Assembly (NCBI GenBank): GCA_017475265.1
Contig: JAFVFY010000066.1
Span: 1 to 64,000, forward strand
Reading direction: 5' to 3'
Length of the DNA: 64,000 nt
Origin: Prevotella sp.
Lineage (GTDB): Bacteria > Bacteroidota > Bacteroidia > Bacteroidales > Bacteroidaceae
The notes under the pieces were generated by a model, which saw only the letters and a list, made by a program, of their open reading frames with translations, was not told the DNA's origin and did no database searches. This document shows positions 16,731 through 63,688 of the stretch, one piece after another. The stretch's first letter is position 1; every line of letters starts with the position of its first letter. The position numbers and the translations under genes were made by a program.

Positions 16731-16817
16731 ATATAATATATTATTGTGTATTTTCATTATCTTTCTCACCCCCCTTGGGAGGAGTCGGAGGAGTGCCTTC
16801 TTTTGAAGTTGTGGCTG

Positions 16818-16849: not shown

Positions 16850-16899
16850 GATTTTGCCGAAAAACTGATTTCAGCCACTGTTTTCACTATGTGACACAA

Positions 16900-16937
16900 A
16901 AATCCCGACGCGATTTGATGAAACCACGACGGGATTT
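16900..16937 (-). terminator. terminator of the lacI-MFS unit
   Basis: On the minus strand AAATCCCG (16937-16930) pairs with CGGGATTT (16907-16900), followed by TTTGTG. It lies 24 bases after the MFS stop codon. Confidence 0.55.
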
Positions 16938-29895: not shown

Positions 29896-32800
29896 TTGAA
29901 ACGATACACTTTTCTATTTGTTGCATGTCTATTGTCATGCCTCAAAGCTTTGTCCCAGACGGGACAGTTTATTTCGGCCGACCGTTTCTCCAGCAGTCTC
30001 ATCAACGACCTCTGTCAGGATAGGGAGGGTTCTCTCTGGGTGGCTACGGACTATGGTCTCAACCGCTTCGATGGTTATAACTTCCAGACTTTTATTCACC
30101 AACCCTCCGACAGCACCTCGCTGACGGACAATATGGTTGTCTGTCTGATGGCCGACCGCCAAGGGTACCTGTGGGTAGGTACGCGAATAGGCCTCGACCG
30201 CTTCGATGCCGCCTCTGAGACGTTCATCCACTATCCTTTTCCCGACGGGCTGACTCCCCACGTGTCCGTTCTGTTGCACTTGCGCGACGGTCGATTGCTG
30301 GTAGGTACGGCGGGCTACGGGGCTTACCTCCTAGGTGATGATGGCAAGTTGCAGCCTTTTGGCGATGAAGGTCCGCATGGTTTCTACAGTCGCATTTTCG
30401 AGGACAGCCAAGGACGGTTGTGGCATTGCAGCTTCGACGAGATGATAGCCTTCAACTATCAGGGCAAGACCACCAATTTCCGCTCAGAATATGGAAATCC
30501 ACAGGCTATTTTGGAGCGCGATGGCGACGTGTTCATTGTCTGTCTGCGAGGCATACTCGTATACCATAACGGACAGATGCTTTCTGACTATGTAGACATG
30601 GGCAAGGCTGGTAGCCAGGACGTCCTCCTCTGGAAGGCTTCGGTGGGTCAGGCGGGTACTATATATATAGGTACGCGAGGACACGGTCTCTACAGCATCG
30701 CCCCTGGCCAGAATCCCCGTATGGAGGATGTAGATATCAGCACCCACGGTATCGACATGCAGACGGCCAAGGTCTCTGCCATGATGTCTGACCGTAGCGG
30801 CAACCTTTGGCTGGCTTGTCACCGTAAGGGACTTGTCATGCTGCCCCAGCGGCCTGAACAGTTTAAGAACTGGAGCTTTGAGGGTCAGGGCATACGCCTG
30901 GGTAGCACCATCTCCTCTGTCTGTGAGGGCGATGGCGGTATGACCTGGGCTACCGTGCAGGGTGTGGGCATCTATGGCTTCAACGACAAGGGGCGCGTGG
31001 TTTCCCGACCCTCCAGCCCCGATGCCGTGGAGTTTATTTTCAGAGATAAGCAGCGTCACTACTGGGTGGGTACTGACAACGGTCTCTATGACTACGACCC
31101 CCTCAGCGGACGCTATTCACAGCGCGTCACCTTCGATTGCGACCGCTTCAACGACATGACCAGCGACGACGAGGGAAACATCTACATCAGCACCTTCTCC
31201 CGAGGTTTTTGTATATACAACCCTCAGACGGGATTCTTCCGCAATTTCTCCATGGACGACCCTGAGGACTCCATCCGCGGTCGTCTGTGTAACAACTGGA
31301 TACTCGCCATGCAGCCCGACCGAAAGGGTCATCTATGGATGGCTACTGCCAGTGGCGTAGCCTGCTACGACCCGAAGGGTGATACCTTCCGTTCCTATGG
31401 TTGGATGCAGCTGCTTTCGGGCATGATATGCTACTCGCTCTGCGAAACATCGCGCGGAGACATTCTTATCGGTACCGACAGGGGACTATACATGTATACG
31501 CCGGGACACGATGAGGCCGTGCCCTTCATTGATGAAGCCGAACAGGAAGCTGGTGTGAACGATGCCCTGAAGGATAAGATTGTGGACTACGTGGTAGAGA
31601 CCAACGACGGTGACATCTGGTGCTCCACGTCGATGGGCGTTTGGCAGTACGACACGCTCAACCATGAGTTCATAGGTCATGTGGCTGGCAACGGCCTCGT
31701 CAAGAAGGAATACATCATGAACGTAGGCCTTCATACAGACGATGACCGCGTGTTCTTCGGCCATAACGACGGACTCACCGTCTTCTCTCCCAGGGAGCTG
31801 AAAATCACCCACCAGCCGCTTTCCGACACGCTACGCCTGACGGCCTTCCGTGTGGGCGACCAGTATGTGACCGTGTCTTCCGTGCTCAACGACATCCGCG
31901 TCACCGACGGCAAGCCCCTGAGCAACTGCATCAATTTCACCTTGAGTTACTTAGACCACACCGTCACCTTGGCCTTCTCCCAGTTCAACTTCGAGACGGC
32001 CATGAATGTGAGCCTGGAGTATCGGCTGAACAACGATGAGTGGGTACGCCAGCAGGAGGGAAAGAACGAAATCACCCTCGCCCACCTCCAGCCAGGCACC
32101 TATCGCATGGAAGTCCGTGCCTGTCAGGGAGGCGACTGCTCACCCTCAAGGATGGTCGTCATCACCGTGCGTTCTCCGTGGTATCGCTCCACGACGGCCT
32201 ATATCATCTATTTCCTGCTCGCAGTTTTGCTCCTGGGGCTCATAGGAGTGCTGCTGCGCCGACAGGCTAACCGACAGCTCGACGAGGAGAAGATGAAGTT
32301 CCTTATCAACGCCACCCACGACATACGCTCGCCGCTCACCATCATACTCAGCGCGCTGAAGAAGCTGAAGACTCCTGCGGGTCATTCCTTGACAGGAGAG
32401 GCTGTGGACACCATCGAGCGAAATTCGCAGCGAATACTCAGCCTGGTGAACCAGATTCTCGACGTGCGTAAGATTGACAAGCAGCAGATGCACCTCCATT
32501 GCCGTGAGACCGACATGGTGCAGTTCGTGGCCGGCATCACCAAGATGTTTGACTTCAATGCCCGTGAGCGAGGCATCACCCTCGCCTTCCAGCACGAAGG
32601 CATCGACCGTCTGCCAGCATGGGTAGACCGCTCACAATTCGACAAGGTCATTACCAACCTACTCTCAAACGCCTTCAAGTACACCCAGGATGGTGGTGAA
32701 ATTACCATTGTCTTAGGCAGCAAGGCCTCCCTTACCAAACAGGGAGAGGCTGGGGAAGGGTCTCTCTTCCTCAAAGTCCTCGACACGGGCGTAGGCCTCG

Positions 32801-33993
32801 ACTCCGATACATTGCGTCATGTCTTTGACCGCTTCTACCAAGGCAGCAACTCGCGCCGCATGAAGGTGGAGGGAACGGGCATCGGCCTTAACCTTTGCAA
32901 GATGATTGTCGACATGCACCACGGCACCATCACCGCCTCCAACCGCACCGACAGCAAGCAGGGTTCTGTCTTCACCGTCACCCTACCGATGGGCTTTGCC
33001 CACCTGGCCCCCGAGGAGATAGAGAAAGCAGAGGACGAACAGTTCCTCGACCAATTCTCCGCTGCCACCGTAGGGGCAGGCCCCGTGCCAGCCCGCCCAG
33101 AAGAGGTTGACGGCAACTCTCAATCCTCAACTCCCAACCCTCACCCTTCAACTCTCACCCCCCAACCCTCAGCTCCTAACCCTCAACCCTCAGCTCCCAA
33201 CCCTCAACCCCCAGTTAGCACTTCTTCGCCCACCCGCAAGCGTGTGCTGCTGGTAGACGATGACGAGGAGATAGGAGACTATATCAAGCAGGAACTCGAC
33301 CGCTTCTATAAATTCGGTGTCTGCCATAACGGTAAGGACGGCCTGAAGGAATTGCTCACAAACACCTACGACATAGTGGTCTCCGACGTGATGATGCCCG
33401 AGATGGACGGTTTCACCATGCTCCGCATGATTAAGTCGAATCTCAACCTCTCGCACCTGCCCGTCATCATGCTCACCTCGAAGTCCGATGTCGCCAACCG
33501 ACTGGAGGGCTTGGAGCATGGAGCCGATGCCTTCCTTGCCAAGCCTTTCGACATGGACGAGCTACACCTCACCATCGAGAATCTCATCAAGGGTCGCCGG
33601 CACCTGAAAGGAAAGTTCAGCGGGGCGCAGCAGCAAACTGACAAGCTGGAGCAGCCAGAGGTGAAAGGCAACGACGAGATGCTCATGGAACGCGTCATGA
33701 AGGCAGTGAACAAAAACCTTGATGATAGCGACTTCAACGTGGAGACACTCTGTCAGGAGGTGGGCATCAGCCGTGCACAGCTCCACCGGAAGATGAAGGA
33801 GCTGACGGGACTCTCCACCAGTGAGTTCATACGCAACATCCGACTCGAACAGGCTGCACGACTGCTGAAGGAGAAGAAAATCAACGTCACACAGGTGGCC
33901 TACACCGTAGGATTCTCAAACCTCGCACACTTCTCCACCATCTTCCGCAAGCATTTCGGAGTGGCTCCCTCGGAGTATGCGCAGAAGGAATAG
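29896..33993 (+). CDS. hybrid two-component system regulator (HTCS)
   Basis: 1365 residues. It must start at TTG 29896: an in-frame stop lies at 29884 and the signal peptide (KRYTFLFVACLLSCLKALSQ) begins right there. Periplasmic two-component propeller repeats (to about 690) and a Y_Y_Y-type domain precede a membrane helix (about 765-787). Then HisKA with His808 (ATHDIRSPLT), HATPase (NLLSNAFKYT, DTGVGLD, GTGIGLNLCK), receiver with Asp1164 (DVMMPEMDG), and an AraC-type DNA-binding end (ISRAQLHRKMKELTGLS). It senses oligosaccharides and switches on nearby utilisation genes. Repeat DNA encodes an insert at about 944-957 and the whole kinase-receiver linker. Confidence 0.93.
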   Translation: MKRYTFLFVACLLSCLKALSQTGQFISADRFSSSLINDLCQDREGSLWVATDYGLNRFDGYNFQTFIHQPSDSTSLTDNMVVCLMADRQGYLWVGTRIGLDRFDAASETFIHYPFPDGLTPHVSVLLHLRDGRLLVGTAGYGAYLLGDDGKLQPFGDEGPHGFYSRIFEDSQGRLWHCSFDEMIAFNYQGKTTNFRSEYGNPQAILERDGDVFIVCLRGILVYHNGQMLSDYVDMGKAGSQDVLLWKASVGQAGTIYIGTRGHGLYSIAPGQNPRMEDVDISTHGIDMQTAKVSAMMSDRSGNLWLACHRKGLVMLPQRPEQFKNWSFEGQGIRLGSTISSVCEGDGGMTWATVQGVGIYGFNDKGRVVSRPSSPDAVEFIFRDKQRHYWVGTDNGLYDYDPLSGRYSQRVTFDCDRFNDMTSDDEGNIYISTFSRGFCIYNPQTGFFRNFSMDDPEDSIRGRLCNNWILAMQPDRKGHLWMATASGVACYDPKGDTFRSYGWMQLLSGMICYSLCETSRGDILIGTDRGLYMYTPGHDEAVPFIDEAEQEAGVNDALKDKIVDYVVETNDGDIWCSTSMGVWQYDTLNHEFIGHVAGNGLVKKEYIMNVGLHTDDDRVFFGHNDGLTVFSPRELKITHQPLSDTLRLTAFRVGDQYVTVSSVLNDIRVTDGKPLSNCINFTLSYLDHTVTLAFSQFNFETAMNVSLEYRLNNDEWVRQQEGKNEITLAHLQPGTYRMEVRACQGGDCSPSRMVVITVRSPWYRSTTAYIIYFLLAVLLLGLIGVLLRRQANRQLDEEKMKFLINATHDIRSPLTIILSALKKLKTPAGHSLTGEAVDTIERNSQRILSLVNQILDVRKIDKQQMHLHCRETDMVQFVAGITKMFDFNARERGITLAFQHEGIDRLPAWVDRSQFDKVITNLLSNAFKYTQDGGEITIVLGSKASLTKQGEAGEGSLFLKVLDTGVGLDSDTLRHVFDRFYQGSNSRRMKVEGTGIGLNLCKMIVDMHHGTITASNRTDSKQGSVFTVTLPMGFAHLAPEEIEKAEDEQFLDQFSAATVGAGPVPARPEEVDGNSQSSTPNPHPSTLTPQPSAPNPQPSAPNPQPPVSTSSPTRKRVLLVDDDEEIGDYIKQELDRFYKFGVCHNGKDGLKELLTNTYDIVVSDVMMPEMDGFTMLRMIKSNLNLSHLPVIMLTSKSDVANRLEGLEHGADAFLAKPFDMDELHLTIENLIKGRRHLKGKFSGAQQQTDKLEQPEVKGNDEMLMERVMKAVNKNLDDSDFNVETLCQEVGISRAQLHRKMKELTGLSTSEFIRNIRLEQAARLLKEKKINVTQVAYTVGFSNLAHFSTIFRKHFGVAPSEYAQKE
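32724..32766 (+). repeat. GC-rich hairpin element inside the HTCS ATPase domain
   Basis: GCCTCCCT (32725-32732) pairs with AGGGAG-a-GGC (32741-32750), followed by GGCTGGGGAAGGGTCTCTC (32748-32766). It encodes ASLTKQGEAGEGSL between the conserved EITIVLGS and FLKVLDTGVGL strands. The 3-prime part matches elements at 40234-40250 and, inverted, 63422-63440. Confidence 0.7.
33070..33212 (+). repeat. degenerate heptamer tract forming the HTCS kinase-receiver linker
   Basis: From 33114 about 14 degenerate CAACYCT-type heptamers run in tandem (CAACTCT, CAATCCT, CAACTCC, CAACCCT and so on). They encode a Pro/Asn/Ser-rich linker with a PNPQPSA rhythm. A separate GC hairpin-like piece (GGGGCAGGCCCC, 33073-33084) precedes it. 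One seven-base change would shift the receiver and DNA-binding domains out of frame. Confidence 0.75.
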
Positions 33994-34013: not shown

Positions 34014-34640
34014 CTATATCTGCCCGGCCTCTACCATGAGGACGACACGCTCGGTGAGGCGGTCTACGCCGTCGGGGTCGTAGCCTTTTTTCAGGGAGGC
34101 ACCGAACATCCAGGCAAAGGCTTGCCACATGCCGGAACGGACGGGGCCTATGAAGGCTTGCATGGCTTCGTAGGCAGTACTGTTGCACTCGCGGTCTATG
34201 AGTTTGATGAGAAGCTTGCCCTGTGAGAAGGTGAGCTTCTTCATTTGTGGCTTGTATTCCTTCACAATGGAGGCCTCCACGCGCTTGAGGTGCTCCTTAC
34301 GCTCCGAAGGTGGCAACGTCTCGGTGAACTCTGCCGTCTCAATGATAATCTGGCGCACCTGCTTGGCAATGGGCAGCACCTTCTTCACGTTGCGTACCAG
34401 GCGCATATAAGCCTGCTGCTGACGCTTGCTCTTGAACGTAGGCTCGGGGTAGACGTAGACCTGCGACAGCTCCATGTACTGTATGGAGTCGCCGTCTACG
34501 AGTGCCTTGCCTATCTTAACGGTAGGAACAAACGTCGGGTCGCCAATGCCCTTGTCATCCTGTGAAAAGGCAGGGAGGGGACTGAAAATCCCCTCCAAGG
34601 CCATAGTCGCTATAATTAATTGATAATTGATAATTGACAA
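34014..34640 (-). CDS. DUF4294 domain-containing exported protein
   Basis: 208 residues as drawn. The conserved DUF4294 region (about 50-200; YMELSQVYVYPEPTFKSK, AYMRLVRNVKKVLPIA, GKLLIKLIDRECNSTAYE) is clear; its function is unknown. The N-terminus is unusual. SIINYQLII is encoded by TTATCAA-type heptamers, and the likely signal-peptide part ALEGIFSPLPAFS is encoded by an 8 bp-stem hairpin (34574-34596). ATG 34604 (MALEGIF) is an alternative start. It converges with the HTCS gene, 20 bases apart, and lies downstream of the acyl-CoA synthetase gene. Confidence 0.8.
   Translation of the reverse strand: MSIINYQLIIATMALEGIFSPLPAFSQDDKGIGDPTFVPTVKIGKALVDGDSIQYMELSQVYVYPEPTFKSKRQQQAYMRLVRNVKKVLPIAKQVRQIIIETAEFTETLPPSERKEHLKRVEASIVKEYKPQMKKLTFSQGKLLIKLIDRECNSTAYEAMQAFIGPVRSGMWQAFAWMFGASLKKGYDPDGVDRLTERVVLMVEAGQI
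34574..34640. repeat. hairpin plus heptamers at the start of the DUF4294 gene
   Basis: GGAGGGGA (34574-34581), seven-base loop, TCCCCTCC (34589-34596), then AATTGAT-type heptamers (about 34613-34650). Same hairpin-plus-heptamer arrangement as at 2895-2985 and 9830-9862. Confidence 0.65.
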
Positions 34641-34671
34641 TTGAAATTGATAATACTGTGTCTGTTCAGGC

Positions 34672-37042: not shown

Positions 37043-37073
37043 TTGTCAGTCAGTTTATGTGTATATTATTTAT

Positions 37074-37242
37074 GGAGTGAAAGGGGAGTAAAAGGGGAGT
37101 GAAGGGGGAGTGAAAGGGACGATACCTTTTGTGGCAGAGAGAGGTGAAGGGGACGATACTTTTTCTGTCAGTGGGAAATGAAGGAGGTAACGTCCCTTTC
37201 ACTTCTCTTTCACTTCCCTTTCACTCCTCCTTCACTCCCCTT
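37074..37242. repeat. long imperfect inverted repeat element, copy A
   Basis: The left arm is built of GTGAAAGGGGA-like units (37074-37120) and the right arm of the complementary TTTCACTTCCC-like units (37193-37242). The centre carries GGGACGATACCTTTTGTGGC (37117-37136), a second GGGACGATACTTTTTCTG (37151-37168), and GGTAACGTCCC (37186-37196). A related copy lies at 55928-56050. It fills the spacer between the XRE gene and DUF3467. Confidence 0.8.
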
Positions 37243-37703: not shown

Positions 37704-37875
37704 ATACTTTAACATCTTTTCAACTCTCCACGTATTGTGCCCGTCTGTTTGGCTTGTCTTTCACAACGTAAAAGGCAGCAACCGACGCAAACACATCGGC
37801 TCTATTATGTTCTAAAGTACGTTTTAAAGGTTACAAAGGGTAGGTTTATAGGTGTGAAAGGATAGGGCTAAAGTT

Positions 37876-37959
37876 AAAATCCCGTCGGTATTTGATAAAA
37901 TCCCGTCGGTATTCATTAAAATCCCGTCGGTATTTGTTAAAATCCCGTCGGTATTTGCT
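37876..37959. repeat. four tandem copies of a 21 bp repeat
   Basis: Unit AAAATCCCGTCGGTATTTGN plus T, at 37876, 37897, 37918 and 37939, nearly identical (unit 2 ends ATTCATT). On the minus strand it reads as YRRDFNK repeats in a frame with no start context, so it is treated as non-coding. It is the main content of the gene-free stretch 37568-38029, together with the DUF3467 leader. Confidence 0.85.
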
Positions 37960-38029
37960 ATTTTTATTTCTTGTACTGTTGAAATAATTGAAACAATAAA
38001 GTGACGGCAGCCCCCGTTTAATTATTGTT

Positions 38030-39578: not shown

Positions 39579-40802
39579 TTAGTATACGGTGTTGTTGAGG
39601 TTGCGGCGGAGGAAGAAGTCGCGGGTACGGAGGAAATAGGTGGCTACACCCAGGACGTTCACTAGCACCACGGCCCAGAAGGCAGCGGAGTAGCCTAGCA
39701 GCTCGGCGATGATGCCTCCGGCTAGTATGCCCAGTCCCATTCCTGCGTCCCAGGAGATAAGGATCGTACTATTTGCCGTTCCCCGTTGGTTGTTGTGGGC
39801 CACACAGATGGTCATGTTCTGGAAGGCGGGCCACATGTGACCGTTGCCAAGGCCGATGAGCAGGGCCGAACCGTAGTAAGCGACATGAATTAAGAATTGG
39901 GAGTTGAGAATTGAGAATTGGGCTAGCGTAGGTAATAATATAAATAATGTGTAGCCCACGAGCGAGATGCACATCCCCTCGCCGGCGTTATGGGTGAGCC
40001 GTCCGCGTCGCAGCGCCTTGCTGCCCAGTAGTCTTGACACCATCAGTCCTACTGCCAGCAGCATGAAGTAGGTGCCCGTGCCGCTGGTGATGCCCATCCG
40101 CTCCTTGCTGTAGATGGCCAGGTAGTTGCTCAGCACGCCGAAGCAGAAGCCGAAAGCCACCATGTTCACTCCCAGCAGCCAGCCACGGAGAAGGAAGAAA
40201 CGGTCGAGACGTATGACCCTTCCAGCAGGAAGGGGCCGGGGGAGGGTCTGCTTTACCGTCGCGTCCACTGCCAGCCCTGCGAAGGCTATGGCAAGGGCTA
40301 TCCAGAAGAGTAGCTCGAAGCTGCCGGAGAGTTGGTAGATGTAGATGCCTATGGTAGGTGCGATGGCCATTGCCAGGTTGTTGCTCAGGCCGTAAAAGCC
40401 GATGCCCTCTGTACGTCGTGAGGAGGGCAGTACGTCGATGGCCATTGTGGAGTTGGCCACGGTGAGTGCGCCAAAGGGTCCGCCGTGGAGCGTGCGAACG
40501 ATGGTGAACATGAGCAGGGTAGATGCCGCCAGGTAACCAGCGAAGAAGATGGCAAAAGCCGTGAAGCTTACCATGAGCACCGTCTTACGCGGAAAGGTGT
40601 CGACGAAATATCCACTGAACGGGCGGAAGAGCAGCGCCGTAATCGTATAGCCCGAGAGCACTAGGCCGATGACATCCTTCGTCGCGCCGAAGTGCTCGTT
40701 CAGGTAGAGCGGCAGCAACGGCGTGAGCACATAGAAAGCAAAGAACAGCGCGAAGTTCGCTGTCATCACCTTGCAGTAGTTACTATTCCACAGACGTTCC
40801 AT
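39579..40802 (-). CDS. MFS transporter with repeat-derived loops
   Basis: About 407 residues from ATG 40802 (MERLWNSNYCKVMTANFALF); ATG 40814 is a possible alternative. 12 membrane helices; motif A is seen as SGYFVDTFPRKTVLM. It resembles efflux-type or uptake carriers of the MFS_1 family; substrate unknown. Two loops come from repeat DNA: LPRPLPAGRVIRL after helix 6 (40213-40250) and AQFSILNSQFLIH (39888-39930). Both fall between membrane segments, where insertions are tolerated. Its promoter lies so close that the mRNA has almost no leader. Confidence 0.88.
   Translation of the reverse strand: MERLWNSNYCKVMTANFALFFAFYVLTPLLPLYLNEHFGATKDVIGLVLSGYTITALLFRPFSGYFVDTFPRKTVLMVSFTAFAIFFAGYLAASTLLMFTIVRTLHGGPFGALTVANSTMAIDVLPSSRRTEGIGFYGLSNNLAMAIAPTIGIYIYQLSGSFELLFWIALAIAFAGLAVDATVKQTLPRPLPAGRVIRLDRFFLLRGWLLGVNMVAFGFCFGVLSNYLAIYSKERMGITSGTGTYFMLLAVGLMVSRLLGSKALRRGRLTHNAGEGMCISLVGYTLFILLPTLAQFSILNSQFLIHVAYYGSALLIGLGNGHMWPAFQNMTICVAHNNQRGTANSTILISWDAGMGLGILAGGIIAELLGYSAAFWAVVLVNVLGVATYFLRTRDFFLRRNLNNTVY
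39888..39930. repeat. heptamer tract inside the MFS gene
   Basis: AATTGGG/AGTTGAG/AATTGAG/AATTGGG units, encoding AQFSILNSQF on the minus strand. It is the same heptamer type as in the GT4 and CotH genes. Confidence 0.7.
40217..40250. repeat. GC-rich hairpin element inside the MFS gene
   Basis: CCCTTCC (40217-40223), loop AGCA, GGAAGGG (40228-40234), followed by GGCCGGGGGAGGGTCTG (40234-40250). It is antisense to the gene and encodes TLPRPLPAGRV. Confidence 0.7.
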
Positions 40803-40819
40803 CGGCTTGTCCATGGGCG

Positions 40820-40850
40820 CAAAGTTACGAACAAAAAACAAAACCGCAAA
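40820..40850 (-). promoter_or_regulatory. promoter of the MFS gene 39579-40802
   Basis: Minus strand TTTG (40850-40847), 19 bases, TAACTTTG (40827-40820). The ATG at 40814 is five bases away and the ATG at 40802 is 17 bases away, so the latter is preferred. Confidence 0.7.
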
Positions 40851-40878
40851 GGATTTTTGCACGAATTATAAAATAATT

Positions 40879-53734: not shown

Positions 53735-54475
53735 ATGCCAAACGACTATTTCCAGTTCAAACAGTTCACCGTGCATCAGGGTCTTTGCGCCATGAAGGTG
53801 GGCACCGACGGCACGCTCCTGGGTGCCTGGGCTAACGTAGTAGGGCACGCTTCCCAGCGTGCCGACGGTTCTGAGGATACTGGCACGCTGGGAAGCGTGC
53901 CCTACTACAGCATCCTCGACATCGGCACCGGCACCGGCCTCATCGCCCTGATGATGGCCCAGCGCTATCCCCAGGCCCAGGTGACCGCCATCGACATCGA
54001 CCCGCAAGCCGTCCGGCAAGCACGGGAAAACGTGGCCGCCTCGCCCTTCGCCGACAGGATAACCATCATCGAAGGAGACATCGGGCGGCTTTCACTCCCT
54101 CCCTTCGAAGCCATCGTCTGCAACCCGCCCTATTTCGATGCCTCGCTGGAAAGCCCCAACGCACAGCGTACGCTTGCCCGACACACCTCATCACTCTCCT
54201 ACCGCGAGCTGATGACCTGCGCCTGGCGGCTGTTGAGTGAAAGTGGCGAACTGTCTGTGGTTATCCCCTTCGACTGCAAGTCACGCTTAGAGGCAGAGGC
54301 CATTCTCACGGGCTTCCACCTGACACGCACCTGTGCCGTGCGCACCACTCCCACAAAACCGCCACGTCGCTTCCTACTGGCCTTCCAGAAACACCCCAAG
54401 CCACTTCAGACGGAGGAATTGGTCATCGGCTCGGATGCCTACAACGAACTGACCAAGGACTTCTACCTCGTATAG
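53735..54475 (+). CDS. tRNA1(Val) A37 N6-methyltransferase-like protein (TrmN6/YfiC)
   Basis: 246 residues from ATG 53735. N-terminus FQFKQFTVHQGLCAMKVGTD GTLLGAWA is typical of the family. SAM motif I LDIGTGTGLIALMMAQRYPQ and the catalytic motif NPPYF are intact. Between GAWAN and ILDIGTGTG, where relatives have only a few residues, about 24 residues (VVGHASQRADGSEDTGTLGS and PYYS) are encoded by a perfect 27 bp inverted repeat (53837-53908). The frame is kept, so the enzyme may still work with an enlarged loop. The family methylates adenine 37 of tRNA-Val. Confidence 0.9.
   Translation: MPNDYFQFKQFTVHQGLCAMKVGTDGTLLGAWANVVGHASQRADGSEDTGTLGSVPYYSILDIGTGTGLIALMMAQRYPQAQVTAIDIDPQAVRQARENVAASPFADRITIIEGDIGRLSLPPFEAIVCNPPYFDASLESPNAQRTLARHTSSLSYRELMTCAWRLLSESGELSVVIPFDCKSRLEAEAILTGFHLTRTCAVRTTPTKPPRRFLLAFQKHPKPLQTEELVIGSDAYNELTKDFYLV
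53837..53908. repeat. perfect 27 bp inverted repeat inside the trmN6-like gene
   Basis: Left arm 53837-53863, 18-base loop, right arm 53882-53908, identical as reverse complements. Each arm is itself palindromic (GGCACGCT, TCCC, AGCGTGCC), so the DNA could fold as a nested cruciform. Length 72 bases, a multiple of three, with no stop in the gene frame. Confidence 0.92.
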
Positions 54476-55505: not shown

Positions 55506-55934
55506 ATGAAGATTCTGATTATCAATGGCCCGAACCTGAACCTGTTGGGGCAAAGGGAGCCGGGCATCTATGGCAGCGAGTCGTTCGAAAACTATCTGGA
55601 AGAGCTGCGTCATCGTTATCCCGATGTCGAGATAGACTATTATCAGAGCAACATCGAGGGCTGCCTCATCGACAAGATGCAGGAAGCTGGATTCCTGAGC
55701 AAGGAGCCTGTGGACGGCATCGTGCTCAACGCCGGGGCCTATACCCATACGAGCATCGCCCTGCATGACTGTATCCGCTCGCTGAAGAGTCCTGTCATCG
55801 AGGTGCATATCTCCAACGTGCACCAGCGCGAGGAGTTCCGCCATCACAGCTATATCTCGTCAGCCTGTAAGGGTGTCATCTGCGGCTTCGGACTGGACAG
55901 CTATAGGCTGGCGGTGGAAGCTTTTAAGGAGTGA
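55506..55934 (+). CDS. aroQ: type II 3-dehydroquinate dehydratase
   Basis: 142 residues. Third step of the shikimate pathway: 3-dehydroquinate to 3-dehydroshikimate. Family motifs IINGPNLNLLGQREPGIYG (catalytic Arg and Tyr), LNAGAYTHTSIALHD, and EVHISNVHQREEFRHHSYIS. Length is typical. The stop codon TGA (55932-55934) is part of the first GGAGTGA unit of the repeat element that follows. Confidence 0.97.
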   Translation: MKILIINGPNLNLLGQREPGIYGSESFENYLEELRHRYPDVEIDYYQSNIEGCLIDKMQEAGFLSKEPVDGIVLNAGAYTHTSIALHDCIRSLKSPVIEVHISNVHQREEFRHHSYISSACKGVICGFGLDSYRLAVEAFKE

Positions 55935-56050
55935 AAGGGGAGTGAAAGAGAAGTGAAGGGGGAGTGAAAGGGACGTTACCTTTCCTGCCACCAAAAGTAT
56001 TGTCCCTTTCACTTCCCCTTCACTCCCCTTTCACTTCCCCTTCACTCCCC
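55928..56050. repeat. long imperfect inverted repeat element, copy B
   Basis: Left arm of GTGAAAGGGGA-like units (55928-55970), centre GGGACGTTACCTTTCCTGCC (55970-55989) with ACCAAAAGTATTGTCCC (55990-56006), right arm of CTTTCACTTCCCC-like units to 56050. It is the same family as 37074-37242, shorter. It sits between aroQ and the O-methyltransferase gene and could end the folD-aroQ mRNA. Confidence 0.8.
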
Positions 56051-56057
56051 TAGGAAT

Positions 56058-56738
56058 ATGGAAAAATACATTCTCCAACACATCGACCCAGAGCCGGAGT
56101 ACCTGCACCGCCTCTGGCGAGCCACGAACCTGCAGCTGCTCAACGGGCGTATGGCCAGCGGACATCTGCAAGGGCGGCTGCTGAAGATGCTGGTGCAGAT
56201 GATTCGACCTCATTATGTTTTAGAGGTGGGAACCTTTAGCGGCTATAGCGCTATCAGCATGGCTGAGGGGCTGGAGGGCGACGGGCAACTCTATACTTTT
56301 GAGATTGACGATGAGCTGGAGGACTTCACCCGTCCGTGGATAGAGGGTTCTGACGTGGCAGACCGTATTCACTTCATCATCGGCGATGCCAACATTGAAG
56401 CGCCACGTCTGGGCATCACCTTCGACATGGCCTTCATCGACGGCGACAAGCGCACCTATTGCGAGACTTACGAGACGGTACTCGGCCTTTTGTGTCCCGG
56501 CGGCTATATCCTAGCCGACAACACACTCTGGGACGGTCACGTCACCGACCCAGCCTACGACCGAGACCACCAGACACAAGGCATCCGTCGCTTCAACGAC
56601 CTCATAAAAGAAGACCGTCGCATAGAGAAGGTTATCCTTCCGCTACGCGACGGCCTGACGATTATCAGAAAAAATGATTATCCGCATGTACCCAACGGTG
56701 TCCCCCTACACCAACAGAATACGACAGATGGTGGATAA
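56058..56738 (+). CDS. class I SAM-dependent O-methyltransferase (COMT-like)
   Basis: 226 residues. SAM motif I VLEVGTFSGYSAISMAEGL, acidic YTFEIDDELEDF, metal-binding FDMAFIDGDKRTYCETYE and LADNTLWDGHV, and the end RDGLTIIRK match the methyltransferase_3 (catechol O-methyltransferase-like) family. These are small cytoplasmic enzymes whose substrate in Bacteroidota is unknown. The usual family end is RDGLTIIRK; about 20 further residues (NDYPHVPNGVPLHQQNTTDG) look like a non-conserved tail. Confidence 0.9.
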   Translation: MEKYILQHIDPEPEYLHRLWRATNLQLLNGRMASGHLQGRLLKMLVQMIRPHYVLEVGTFSGYSAISMAEGLEGDGQLYTFEIDDELEDFTRPWIEGSDVADRIHFIIGDANIEAPRLGITFDMAFIDGDKRTYCETYETVLGLLCPGGYILADNTLWDGHVTDPAYDRDHQTQGIRRFNDLIKEDRRIEKVILPLRDGLTIIRKNDYPHVPNGVPLHQQNTTDGG

Positions 56739-58440: not shown

Positions 58441-58688
58441 GAGTTGTTTTTTTGTTGTTTCGTGTGCAAAGTTGGGTCATTTGTGTTTAATTACCAAATA
58501 TAATTGATAATATTTCAATGTTAACGTTGCAAATTGAATTTATTTAATACTAATTATTCCACTAAAACGTTTGTTTTACGAGAAATAGAAGTCATTTTGC
58601 TCGTTTCTTATATCTTGATGTAACGCTTGCCCTTGACCCGCAAGCGACCAGAGGTTGAGCGGGTAGCAAGCGGAAGAACCGAGCGCAC

Positions 58689-58754
58689 CTTTCTTATACT
58701 TTGCCGTAATCTTTCTTATACTTTGCCGTAACCTTTCTTATACTTTGCCGTAAC
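58689..58754. repeat. three tandem copies of a 22 bp repeat
   Basis: Units at 58689, 58711 and 58733: CTTTCTTATACTTTGCCGTA plus AT or AC, then a decayed fourth start (CTTCCTTCG). The gene-free stretch 58441-58960 holds this array, the next one, a hairpin-prone CGCTTGC..GCAAGCG (58624-58646) and the promoter of the HU-like gene. Confidence 0.9.
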
Positions 58755-58781
58755 CTTCCTTCGTTCTTGCCCGGAGCAAGA

Positions 58782-58862
58782 GTTAATTCGCCGCCGATGA
58801 ACGTTAATTCGCCGACGGTGAACGTTAAATCGCCGACGATGAACGTTAATTCACCGTCGGCG
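58782..58862. repeat. four tandem copies of a 21 bp repeat, last one partial
   Basis: Units at 58782, 58803, 58824 and 58845, consensus GTTAATTCGCCGACGRTGAA plus C. Unit 2 (TCGCCGACGGTGAA) and the end of the last unit (TTCACCGTCGGCGA) are exact reverse complements over 14 bases, so the array can fold. It ends two bases before the -33 box of the HU-like gene. Confidence 0.9.
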
Positions 58863-58863
58863 A

Positions 58864-62797: not shown

Positions 62798-63688
62798 ATG
62801 GCTTTAAAAATTGTAGTACTTGCCAAGCAAGTACCCGACACAAGAAATGTGGGTAAGGATGCCATGACCGCTGAAGGTACTGTAAATCGCGCCGCCCTGC
62901 CCGCAATCTTCAATCCCGAAGACCTTAATGCCCTGGAGCAGGCACTTCGCCTGAAAGAACAGAATCCAGGTTCTACAGTAGGAATCCTCACGATGGGTCC
63001 TCCACGTGCAGGTGAAATCATCCGTCAGGGACTTTATCGTGGTGCCGACACGGGTTGGCTCTTGACTGACCGTCTGTTTGCCGGTGCCGATACCCTCGCT
63101 ACTTCTTACGCCCTCGCCACCGCCATCAAGAAGATTGGTGATGTGGACATCGTCATCGGTGGTCGTCAGGCCATCGACGGCGATACTGCACAGGTAGGTC
63201 CGCAGGTGGCACAGAAGCTGGGCCTCAACCAGGTTACTTACGCCGAGGAGGTTCTCAGCGTGAAAGACGGCAAGGCTACCATCAAGCGCGTCATCGACGG
63301 TGGCGTGGAGACCGTAGAGGCTCCCCTGCCTGTGGTAATCACAGTGAACGGAAGCGCTGCTCCCTGCCGTCCCCAGAATGCAAAGCTGGTGATGAAGTAC
63401 AAGCGCGCCACCTGTCCGATGGAGAGAACCTCCCCCAACCCCTCCGAAGGAGGGGAGTCGGATTACTCCTACCTTTACGAGGAAAGACCCTACCTGACGC
63501 TGAACCAGTGGAGTGTGGCCGATGTCGATGGCGACCCGCAGCAATGCGGTCTTGCCGGTTCGCCCACGAAAGTGAAGGCCATCAAGAACATCGTGTTCCA
63601 GGCTAAGGAGTCGAAGACTTTGACGGCTTCAGATGCTGATATCGAGGGAATGATTAAAGAATTGTTGGACGAAAAGATTATTGGATAA
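62798..63688 (+). CDS. etfB: electron transfer flavoprotein subunit beta
   Basis: 296 residues. It forms the FAD/AMP-binding ETF heterodimer with EtfA and passes electrons from acyl-CoA dehydrogenases or similar enzymes to the membrane chain. Features: KIVVLAKQVPDTRNVG, the signature VGPQVAQKLGLNQVTYAEEV, LPVVITVNGSAAPCRPQNAK, and the end GLAGSPTKVKAIKNIVFQAK. Between KYKRAT and ERPYLTLNQW about 22 residues (CPMERTSPNPSEGGESDYSY) are extra and come from a repeat element (63422-63470). The acyl-CoA partner genes are outside the window. Confidence 0.93.
   Translation: MALKIVVLAKQVPDTRNVGKDAMTAEGTVNRAALPAIFNPEDLNALEQALRLKEQNPGSTVGILTMGPPRAGEIIRQGLYRGADTGWLLTDRLFAGADTLATSYALATAIKKIGDVDIVIGGRQAIDGDTAQVGPQVAQKLGLNQVTYAEEVLSVKDGKATIKRVIDGGVETVEAPLPVVITVNGSAAPCRPQNAKLVMKYKRATCPMERTSPNPSEGGESDYSYLYEERPYLTLNQWSVADVDGDPQQCGLAGSPTKVKAIKNIVFQAKESKTLTASDADIEGMIKELLDEKIIG
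63422..63460. repeat. GC-rich hairpin element inside etfB
   Basis: CCCCTCC (63439-63445), loop GAA, GGAGGGG (63449-63455). The flank 63422-63440, read on the minus strand, is GGTTGGGGGAGGTTCTCTC, close to the elements inside the HTCS (32748-32766) and MFS (40234-40250) genes. Confidence 0.75.

Follow-up and report, generated by a model that had tools for sequence, protein, structure and literature searches.

A REPIN-like hairpin family of rumen Prevotella-type genomes, frequently read through in frame inside protein-coding genes

In this study, we describe a REPIN-like palindromic family that appears to be dispersed in rumen Prevotella-type genomes and to persist in genes as a tolerated, translated loop; we assign a probability of about 0.8 to this reading. 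According to the mechanism we propose, a GC-rich hairpin of ~38 nt with a one-sided G-rich tail, often arranged as an inverted pair, would disperse through rumen Prevotella-type bacteria and their family. Copies in genes would be kept where they are read through without a stop, adding or replacing a Pro/Gly/Ser/Glu-rich loop that the protein tolerates. The element is probably selfish; the host would tolerate it without drawing benefit from it. Its dispersal points to mobility as an element, and selection would act against harmful frames and sites.

The family was recognized in the window, which is the whole 64,000-nt stretch of DNA analyzed here. The initial annotation had noticed three related sequences within the HTCS, MFS and EtfB ORFs; all three are located where it had placed them, in frame and with the peptides it had given. 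The HTCS copy (32726–32764, plus strand) is in the HATPase_c domain of a hybrid two-component system protein (29896–33993, plus strand), and it adds the peptide SLTKQGEAGEGS. The MFS copy (40213–40250, plus strand) lies in an MFS transporter gene (39579–40862, minus strand) and corresponds to the peptide QTLPRPLPAGRV. The EtfB copy (63424–63458, minus strand), corresponding to the peptide RTSPNPSEGGES, is in the gene for the electron transfer flavoprotein beta subunit (62798–63688, plus strand). The HTCS and MFS genes were assigned by the ORF list and domain scan, and EtfB by these and its relatives. The differences between the peptides follow from orientation and frame, as had been suggested: the HTCS copy is on its gene's own strand, whereas the MFS and EtfB copies are opposite to their genes.

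Within the window alone, the statistics are weak, too weak to decide relatedness: the tail pattern, with at most three mismatches, gave 5 matches compared to 1.76 expected, and 3 of 100 shuffles reached 5. In the source genome (G000, 4.75 Mb in 135 contigs), the tail pattern gave 43 matches, compared to 15 for the reversed control pattern. We constructed two covariance models from copies outside the window, R1 from five copies and R2 from 31. Both models ranked the three window copies 1–3 in the 64 kb, in the order of EtfB (E = 5.6e-7 with R1 and 8.7e-8 with R2), MFS (1.9e-4 and 0.0013) and HTCS (0.029 and 0.023); these E-values are rough owing to a short calibration, and the test is not wholly independent, because the outside copies came from a pattern drawn on the window copies. 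The ranking argues for one family behind the three copies, in agreement with the earlier proposal. As for the stem-loop that had been described at each copy, only the EtfB stem is clean; the HTCS stem is decayed, with mismatches, and R2 puts the 5′ arm of the MFS copy elsewhere than R1. Rank 4 was taken by one piece upstream of leuS, a minus-strand gene (16764–16799, plus strand; E = 0.31 with R1 and 0.10 with R2). This piece has a coding-like flank on one side only in the open-frame test, and it is possibly a decayed copy.

Several other repeats were also observed in the window. One inverted, 11-bp-periodic repeat of the GGAGTGAAAGGGG / CCCCTTTCACTCC type is present in two copies (37063–37242 and 55923–56062), the arms of which are complementary within and between both places. 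One 21-bp tandem repeat, AAATCCCGTCGGTATTT, is located at 37874–37976, and its distant partner (16897–16937) is close to the leuS leader. Two adjacent tandem arrays with periods of 22 and 21 occupy positions 58687–58863, and one perfect 27-bp inverted repeat with an 18-nt loop is at 53837–53908. An AT-rich 14-bp repeat, AATTGAGAATTGAG, occurs at 2881–2926, 34618–34649 and 39888–39933. In one relative (L271), the MFS loop that holds the hairpin in the window MFS reads KNEECRMKNEE, which is perhaps the AT-rich 14-bp repeat in frame.

Searching G000 with R2 identified at least 149 matches at E ≤ 1, 134 of them at E ≤ 0.01, so the three window copies are not the only ones. We take 149 as a minimum, since only 150 of 1850 candidates received a score and the HTCS and MFS window copies are absent from the matches. 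Merging the 149 matches with these two copies gave 113 elements. The unit is ACTCCCCTCCC-loop-GGGAGGGG followed by the one-sided tail, ~YYGGGGG(A/T)GGGTCT, and is ~38 nt in length. In plain alignments, of 21 and of 18 copies, the 5′ arm of the stem came to lie in the wrong place, and a model-based alignment was used instead. Base pairing of the 8-bp stem reaches 95.1% of cells in the 31 copies, and shifting the partner by 1 to 3 columns lowers it to 58.8–81.4%. Since this alignment had been fitted to the structure, and a change on both sides is seen in no more than two cells, support for the stem comes mainly from conservation. Of 38 neighboring pairs with a spacing below 300 nt, 32 have their hairpins inverted and the tails outward, an arrangement called REPIN or REP dimer; one of these 32 is in fact one hairpin that gave a match on each strand. 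The hairpin family noticed at the outset is real, but in many cases the element takes the form of an inverted pair of about 117–119 nt. Several subfamilies, differing in loop and tail, coexist in G000.

Elements were counted as in-gene when an open frame ran through the element with coding-like codon use on both flanks. In G000, 77 of the 113 elements are in genes with the frame kept, including 53 single hairpins, 23 pairs and one group of four; this number rests on the 150 scored of 1850 candidates, and an initial, more stringent form of the test, which counted the leuS piece as well, gave 63 of 114. Among the other 36 elements, 11 overlap an ORF of at least 200 codons that is coding-like on both sides and 25 do not. 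Eight elements had been flagged at first for a differing frame or a stop on the same strand. Of these, seven lie between genes, because the stop codon of the upstream gene is at most 11 nt from their edge; the remaining one, a pair at C12:24286, may break a gene. The earlier view of an element in genes holds for these 77 elements, but part of the copies are not in genes. Its companion claim, that a copy persists only if the frame is preserved, agrees with the data, although broken genes are hard to see with the methods used.

Domain scans of 75 protein stretches covered 76 of the 77 in-gene elements. By hand reading, 36 elements fall within a single reported domain or family stretch, and another 2 fall between two parts of one; therefore, about half are in well-known protein families. 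The DNA-related hosts are UvrA, DnaG (two elements), Mfd and a PIF1/RecD-type helicase. Other hosts are Lon, a Tyr/Trp-type and another class I tRNA synthetase, IspH (LytB), KsgA (two), MnmA and CobD, together with glutamate synthase, TamB, TonB receptors and several glycosidases. Several of the host enzymes, such as DnaG and the tRNA synthetases, are usually essential; UvrA and DnaG have further paralogues in G000. From the host list, we had the impression that DNA-repair proteins are over-represented. One 293-codon KsgA-type ORF (L116) contains two elements (G000:C98:83517 and 83987), and the UvrA of G000 (L077) seems to contain, besides its 119-nt pair, a further segment near query residues 133–157, missing in relatives, where the G002 and G012 matches break.

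Since single hairpins are open in ~5.1 of the six frames, the frame is not set by stop codons alone. Over the six frame classes, the 53 singles in genes are distributed as 18, 13, 12, 8, 1 and 1; when each copy chose among its own open frames, this unevenness was reached in 7 of 20000 simulations, which count related copies as independent. The presence of one family in many unrelated genes, the preservation of the frame and the frame bias are direct observations. Because the hairpins sit in genes that are usually essential, such as dnaG and those of the tRNA synthetases, one could suppose that the insert is removed or skipped by RNA splicing, translational bypass or protein splicing. RNA splicing or bypass needs no frame, and the frame preservation (77/113) and frame bias favor translation; protein splicing would need the frame, so frame preservation does not count against it. 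Overall, we consider removal or skipping highly improbable. Judged from its reading frame, the tolerated loop would be translated into the mature protein.

Among the pairs in genes, the ten that measure 116 or 119 nt share one reading phase and encode alike peptides, for example KPTPNPSRGEGSLDTSTLQNTSEQSNLSPLPLGGVGGGS in DnaG and RPNPNPSREEGRLVTSTLQNTSKQTNPSPLPSGGVGGGF in UvrA. DNA identity between the 119-nt pairs of UvrA and DnaG amounts to 87% over their length, and the peptides match each other at 68%. The phase argument is weakened, because two of the ten pairs have only one open frame and the one 117-nt in-gene pair of G000 uses another phase. In other genomes, we found five in-gene pairs of 117 nt; four read alike, with THPQPLPVREGS or TLPQPLPVREGS at the start, and one does not. 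G000 has 31 inverted pairs among its elements. Those of up to 125 nt lie in ORFs in 19 of 20 cases, a count in which the hairpin with a match on each strand is included, compared to 2 of 11 for longer pairs (Fisher 2.5e-5). We tentatively raise the idea, which we think somewhat less likely to be right than wrong, that the compact pair of 116–119 nt is adapted to coding sequence: keeping its length, its stop-free phase and a hydrophilic peptide, it would enter usually essential genes as an in-frame module, while the longer, mostly stop-containing pairs would sit between genes.

The orthologous sites of relatives were compared for five host proteins. For EtfB, the comparison used the best 80 loci, mostly from rumen Prevotella, and the EtfB proteins of 23 relatives are 91–99% identical to that of the window. 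The short loop PAEGTAYD, or one near it, is present in 69 of the best 80 relatives. EtfB of L157 (a Prevotella sp. bin from yak reticulum, 99% identical to the window EtfB) and of L159 carry an insert like that of the window, and L161, L163 and L229 have another subfamily, SLTPDPSPKGEGS or close to it, at the same place. L232 has a different hairpin ahead of an intact PAEGTAYD; the loops of L158, L168, L194, L220 and L227 are different again. To see if the dissimilar EtfB inserts of L194, L220, L227 and L232 go back to a repeated hairpin, we searched these four genomes with one pattern taken from the L227-like inserts; it gave 1, 4, 4 and 7 hits, respectively, compared to 2, 1, 4 and 0 for the reversed control. 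One AlphaFold2 prediction of EtfB (24 sequences) had a mean pLDDT of 54 and was set aside; the loop is presumably exposed at the protein surface.

At DnaG site 1, the loop is short in 26 of 29 relatives, and in the remaining three it holds a low-complexity insert. G063, which gave the best DnaG match, has a paired hairpin of another kind there. The paired-hairpin insert at site 1 of L388, AGCCCCC...GGGGGCT, is unlike the family in the G000 DnaG. At DnaG site 2, by hand reading, G066, G062, G022 and G023 have peptides of the hairpin family's kind. The UvrA element is absent from 29 of 29 relatives, two of which carry other inserts in that loop. The MFS element is absent from all 10 closer relatives (at least 55% identity); seven of them have a loop of the same length with another sequence and three have a longer one. 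The HTCS loop is ~10 residues longer than in the nearest relative, the loops of more distant relatives vary in length, and relatives without the element exist. Insert-free sites in relatives and other inserts at the same loops are thus observed directly, and at none of the five proteins is the insert fixed in all orthologues. Such loops seem to be recurrent landing sites.

Compared to relatives, the net gain in residues is 0 in MFS, 6 in EtfB, ~10 in HTCS, ~20 in UvrA and ~36 in DnaG. It is smaller than the element at all five compared sites; part of the old loop was therefore replaced or later lost. Simple insertion does not predict such small net gains without trimming or replacement. Among the genomes compared, we saw no insertion between near-identical ones, and no target-site duplication could be defined. 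The small gains, and the unlike, low-complexity or palindromic-looking inserts at the same loops (EtfB of L194, L220, L227 and L232; DnaG of L238–L240), are what one would expect if no mobile element existed and GC-rich proline/glycine loops expanded in place and converged on similar palindromes. However, the non-palindromic tail is common to the 149 G000 matches, copies outside genes carry the same sequence as those in genes, and the UvrA and DnaG copies agree at 87% in DNA across 119 nt; expansion in place is, in our opinion, quite improbable, and dispersal of one element is preferred.

The family is not restricted to G000. Among 35 genomes of the same genus, 29 have at least one match, and the number per genome is 0 to 110, with no more than 115 scored in each. 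In a sample across the family, a match at E ≤ 1e-4 is present in 31 of 121 genomes (G000 included), which belong to 9 of 30 genera. The patchy distribution is a direct observation. The in-gene test was repeated on 128 elements from 15 other genomes, in stretches around the best-scoring hits; 37 of the 128 sampled elements are in frame in a gene, very unevenly between genomes. The share rises from none in G016 (0/12), G026 (0/6) and G090 (0/5) through G019 (1/15), G157 (1/7), G129 (2/13), G193 (2/7), G028 (1/3), G023 (4/12), G032 (2/6), G183 (3/8), G034 (7/13), G162 (3/5) and G094 (4/6) to 7/10 in G022. These counts were obtained with a codon model trained on G000, and elements near stretch ends can be missed. 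In G016, G129 and G019 taken together, 26 of 37 outside-gene elements lack any through-frame of minimum flanks. The three lowest-GC genomes of the sample (G016, G026 and G129) have 2 of 31 elements in genes. Best-hit sampling may understate the in-gene share elsewhere, because in G000 the share is 10 of 20 among the best-scoring matches and 29 of 39 in the last group. Since some genomes hold nearly all sampled copies outside genes (none of 12 in genes in G016), insertion into genes is a lineage-dependent habit. The initial proposal of an element that spreads into genes is supported by dispersal, frame keeping and insert-free sites; it needs qualification in that movement is deduced from these patterns and the gene habit depends on the lineage.

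The same survey bears on two other explanations. The nearest named relatives are mostly metagenome-assembled genomes and G000 is in 135 contigs, as would suit an assembly or metagenome-bin artefact; however, the family is also present in genomes of one and two contigs (G016, G129 and G165), and G129 has frame-kept copies. We give an artefact hardly any weight at all. Alternatively, the repeat could have a job at the DNA level (chromosome organization, recombination or an uptake signal), with the coding copies merely tolerated in permissive frames and loops. The shared one-sided tail, a copy number that is high though patchy, and hosts among DNA-maintenance proteins (UvrA, DnaG, Mfd and the PIF1/RecD-type helicase) are compatible with such a job. 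However, match numbers range from 0 to 110 within one genus, the hosts are of many kinds, glycosidases and TonB receptors among them, and several subfamilies coexist. We therefore regard a DNA-level job as unlikely, and the dispersed, tolerated element remains our preferred explanation.

The closest parallel by description is with the Rickettsia palindromic elements. In PMC3767692, RPE-1 to RPE-7 and the Wolbachia palindromic elements (WPEs) are described as 100–150 bp repeats in preexisting ORFs, the frame of which is not destroyed. RPEs insert at the same place in orthologues, sometimes as different groups, and their hosts include a tRNA synthetase subunit and DNA polymerase III alpha; for RPE-4, -6 and -7 in Rickettsia, the authors reported recurrent sites and left hotspot versus common origin undecided (PMC3767692). 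Like RPE and WPE, the Prevotella family is a palindromic repeat inside ORFs with the frame kept (77/113), and insert-free orthologues exist. Different from them, its host is of Prevotella-type Bacteroidota; in hairpin sequence, tail and inverted-pair architecture it seems distinct, RPEs being compared by description, and its in-gene share differs strongly between genomes. By analogy, the Prevotella family would work like the Rickettsia palindromic elements; we do not claim membership in the RPE families.

REPs and REPINs of the GTAG and CGTC super-families, as presented in PMC3733652, are short high-copy hairpins that form inverted doublets, with several subfamilies per genome. Some REP copies are inside ORFs, including uvrA and recombination genes, and the mover of the CGTC REPs is said there to be unknown (PMC3733652). 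The Prevotella family resembles them as a short palindrome in high copy (149 matches in G000) with inverted doublets (32/38). Different from REPs, it has GTAG near the 5′ end in 3 of 151 copies and CGTC at either end in 1 of 151; CTAC, which is GTAG on the other strand, is in 16 of 151. REPs are mainly extragenic, whereas 77 of 113 elements are in genes in G000; yet in G016 all 12 sampled elements are outside genes. Different from REPs again, the family shows no association with the Y1/RAYT transposase family. The family looks like REPINs, but in G000 it departs from REPs in tag, location and transposase link.

The RAYT transposase was considered as the mover and is not supported. Across the 35 same-genus genomes, Y1_Tnp (PF01797, RAYT family) matches did not correlate with copy number (Spearman -0.11, p = 0.51). 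There was no Y1_Tnp match in 7 of 14 genomes with at least 20 copies and in 6 of 18 with at most 5 copies, some of these genomes being incomplete. G000 has three Y1 matches, on contigs C20, C29 and C37, and none of the 149 listed hairpin matches is on these contigs. In the Bacteroidetes TnpA-REP subclass 2.6, according to PMC6006769, atypical secondary structures flank the Y1 genes and hairpin copies occur elsewhere in the genome. The phylum is the same; however, the Y1 gene of G000 with the full-length match (L031) is adjoined by another repeat. This Y1-type transposase gene, at L031 1280–2100, is flanked by GC-rich hairpins of the agccccgaaggggc type, which belong to another family. In the open-access literature, we found no report of the present hairpin family in Prevotella or other Bacteroidota; subscription papers were mostly outside this search.

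Protein-coding palindromes have been described for Rickettsia and Wolbachia, and in-gene REPs for some other species. Here, 77 of the 113 detected elements of one 4.75 Mb rumen-type genome are in genes, whereas other genomes carry the family mostly outside genes. This difference in habitat between related genomes is the most interesting point: on the tentative reading of a repeat adapted to coding sequence, a switch from an extragenic REP to a protein-coding repeat could be traced within one bacterial family. An old question, how mobile DNA can add protein segments without killing the host gene, thereby becomes testable by comparison and experiment, and an insert in a loop of a Prevotella-type protein may turn out to be repeat DNA and not a functional domain.
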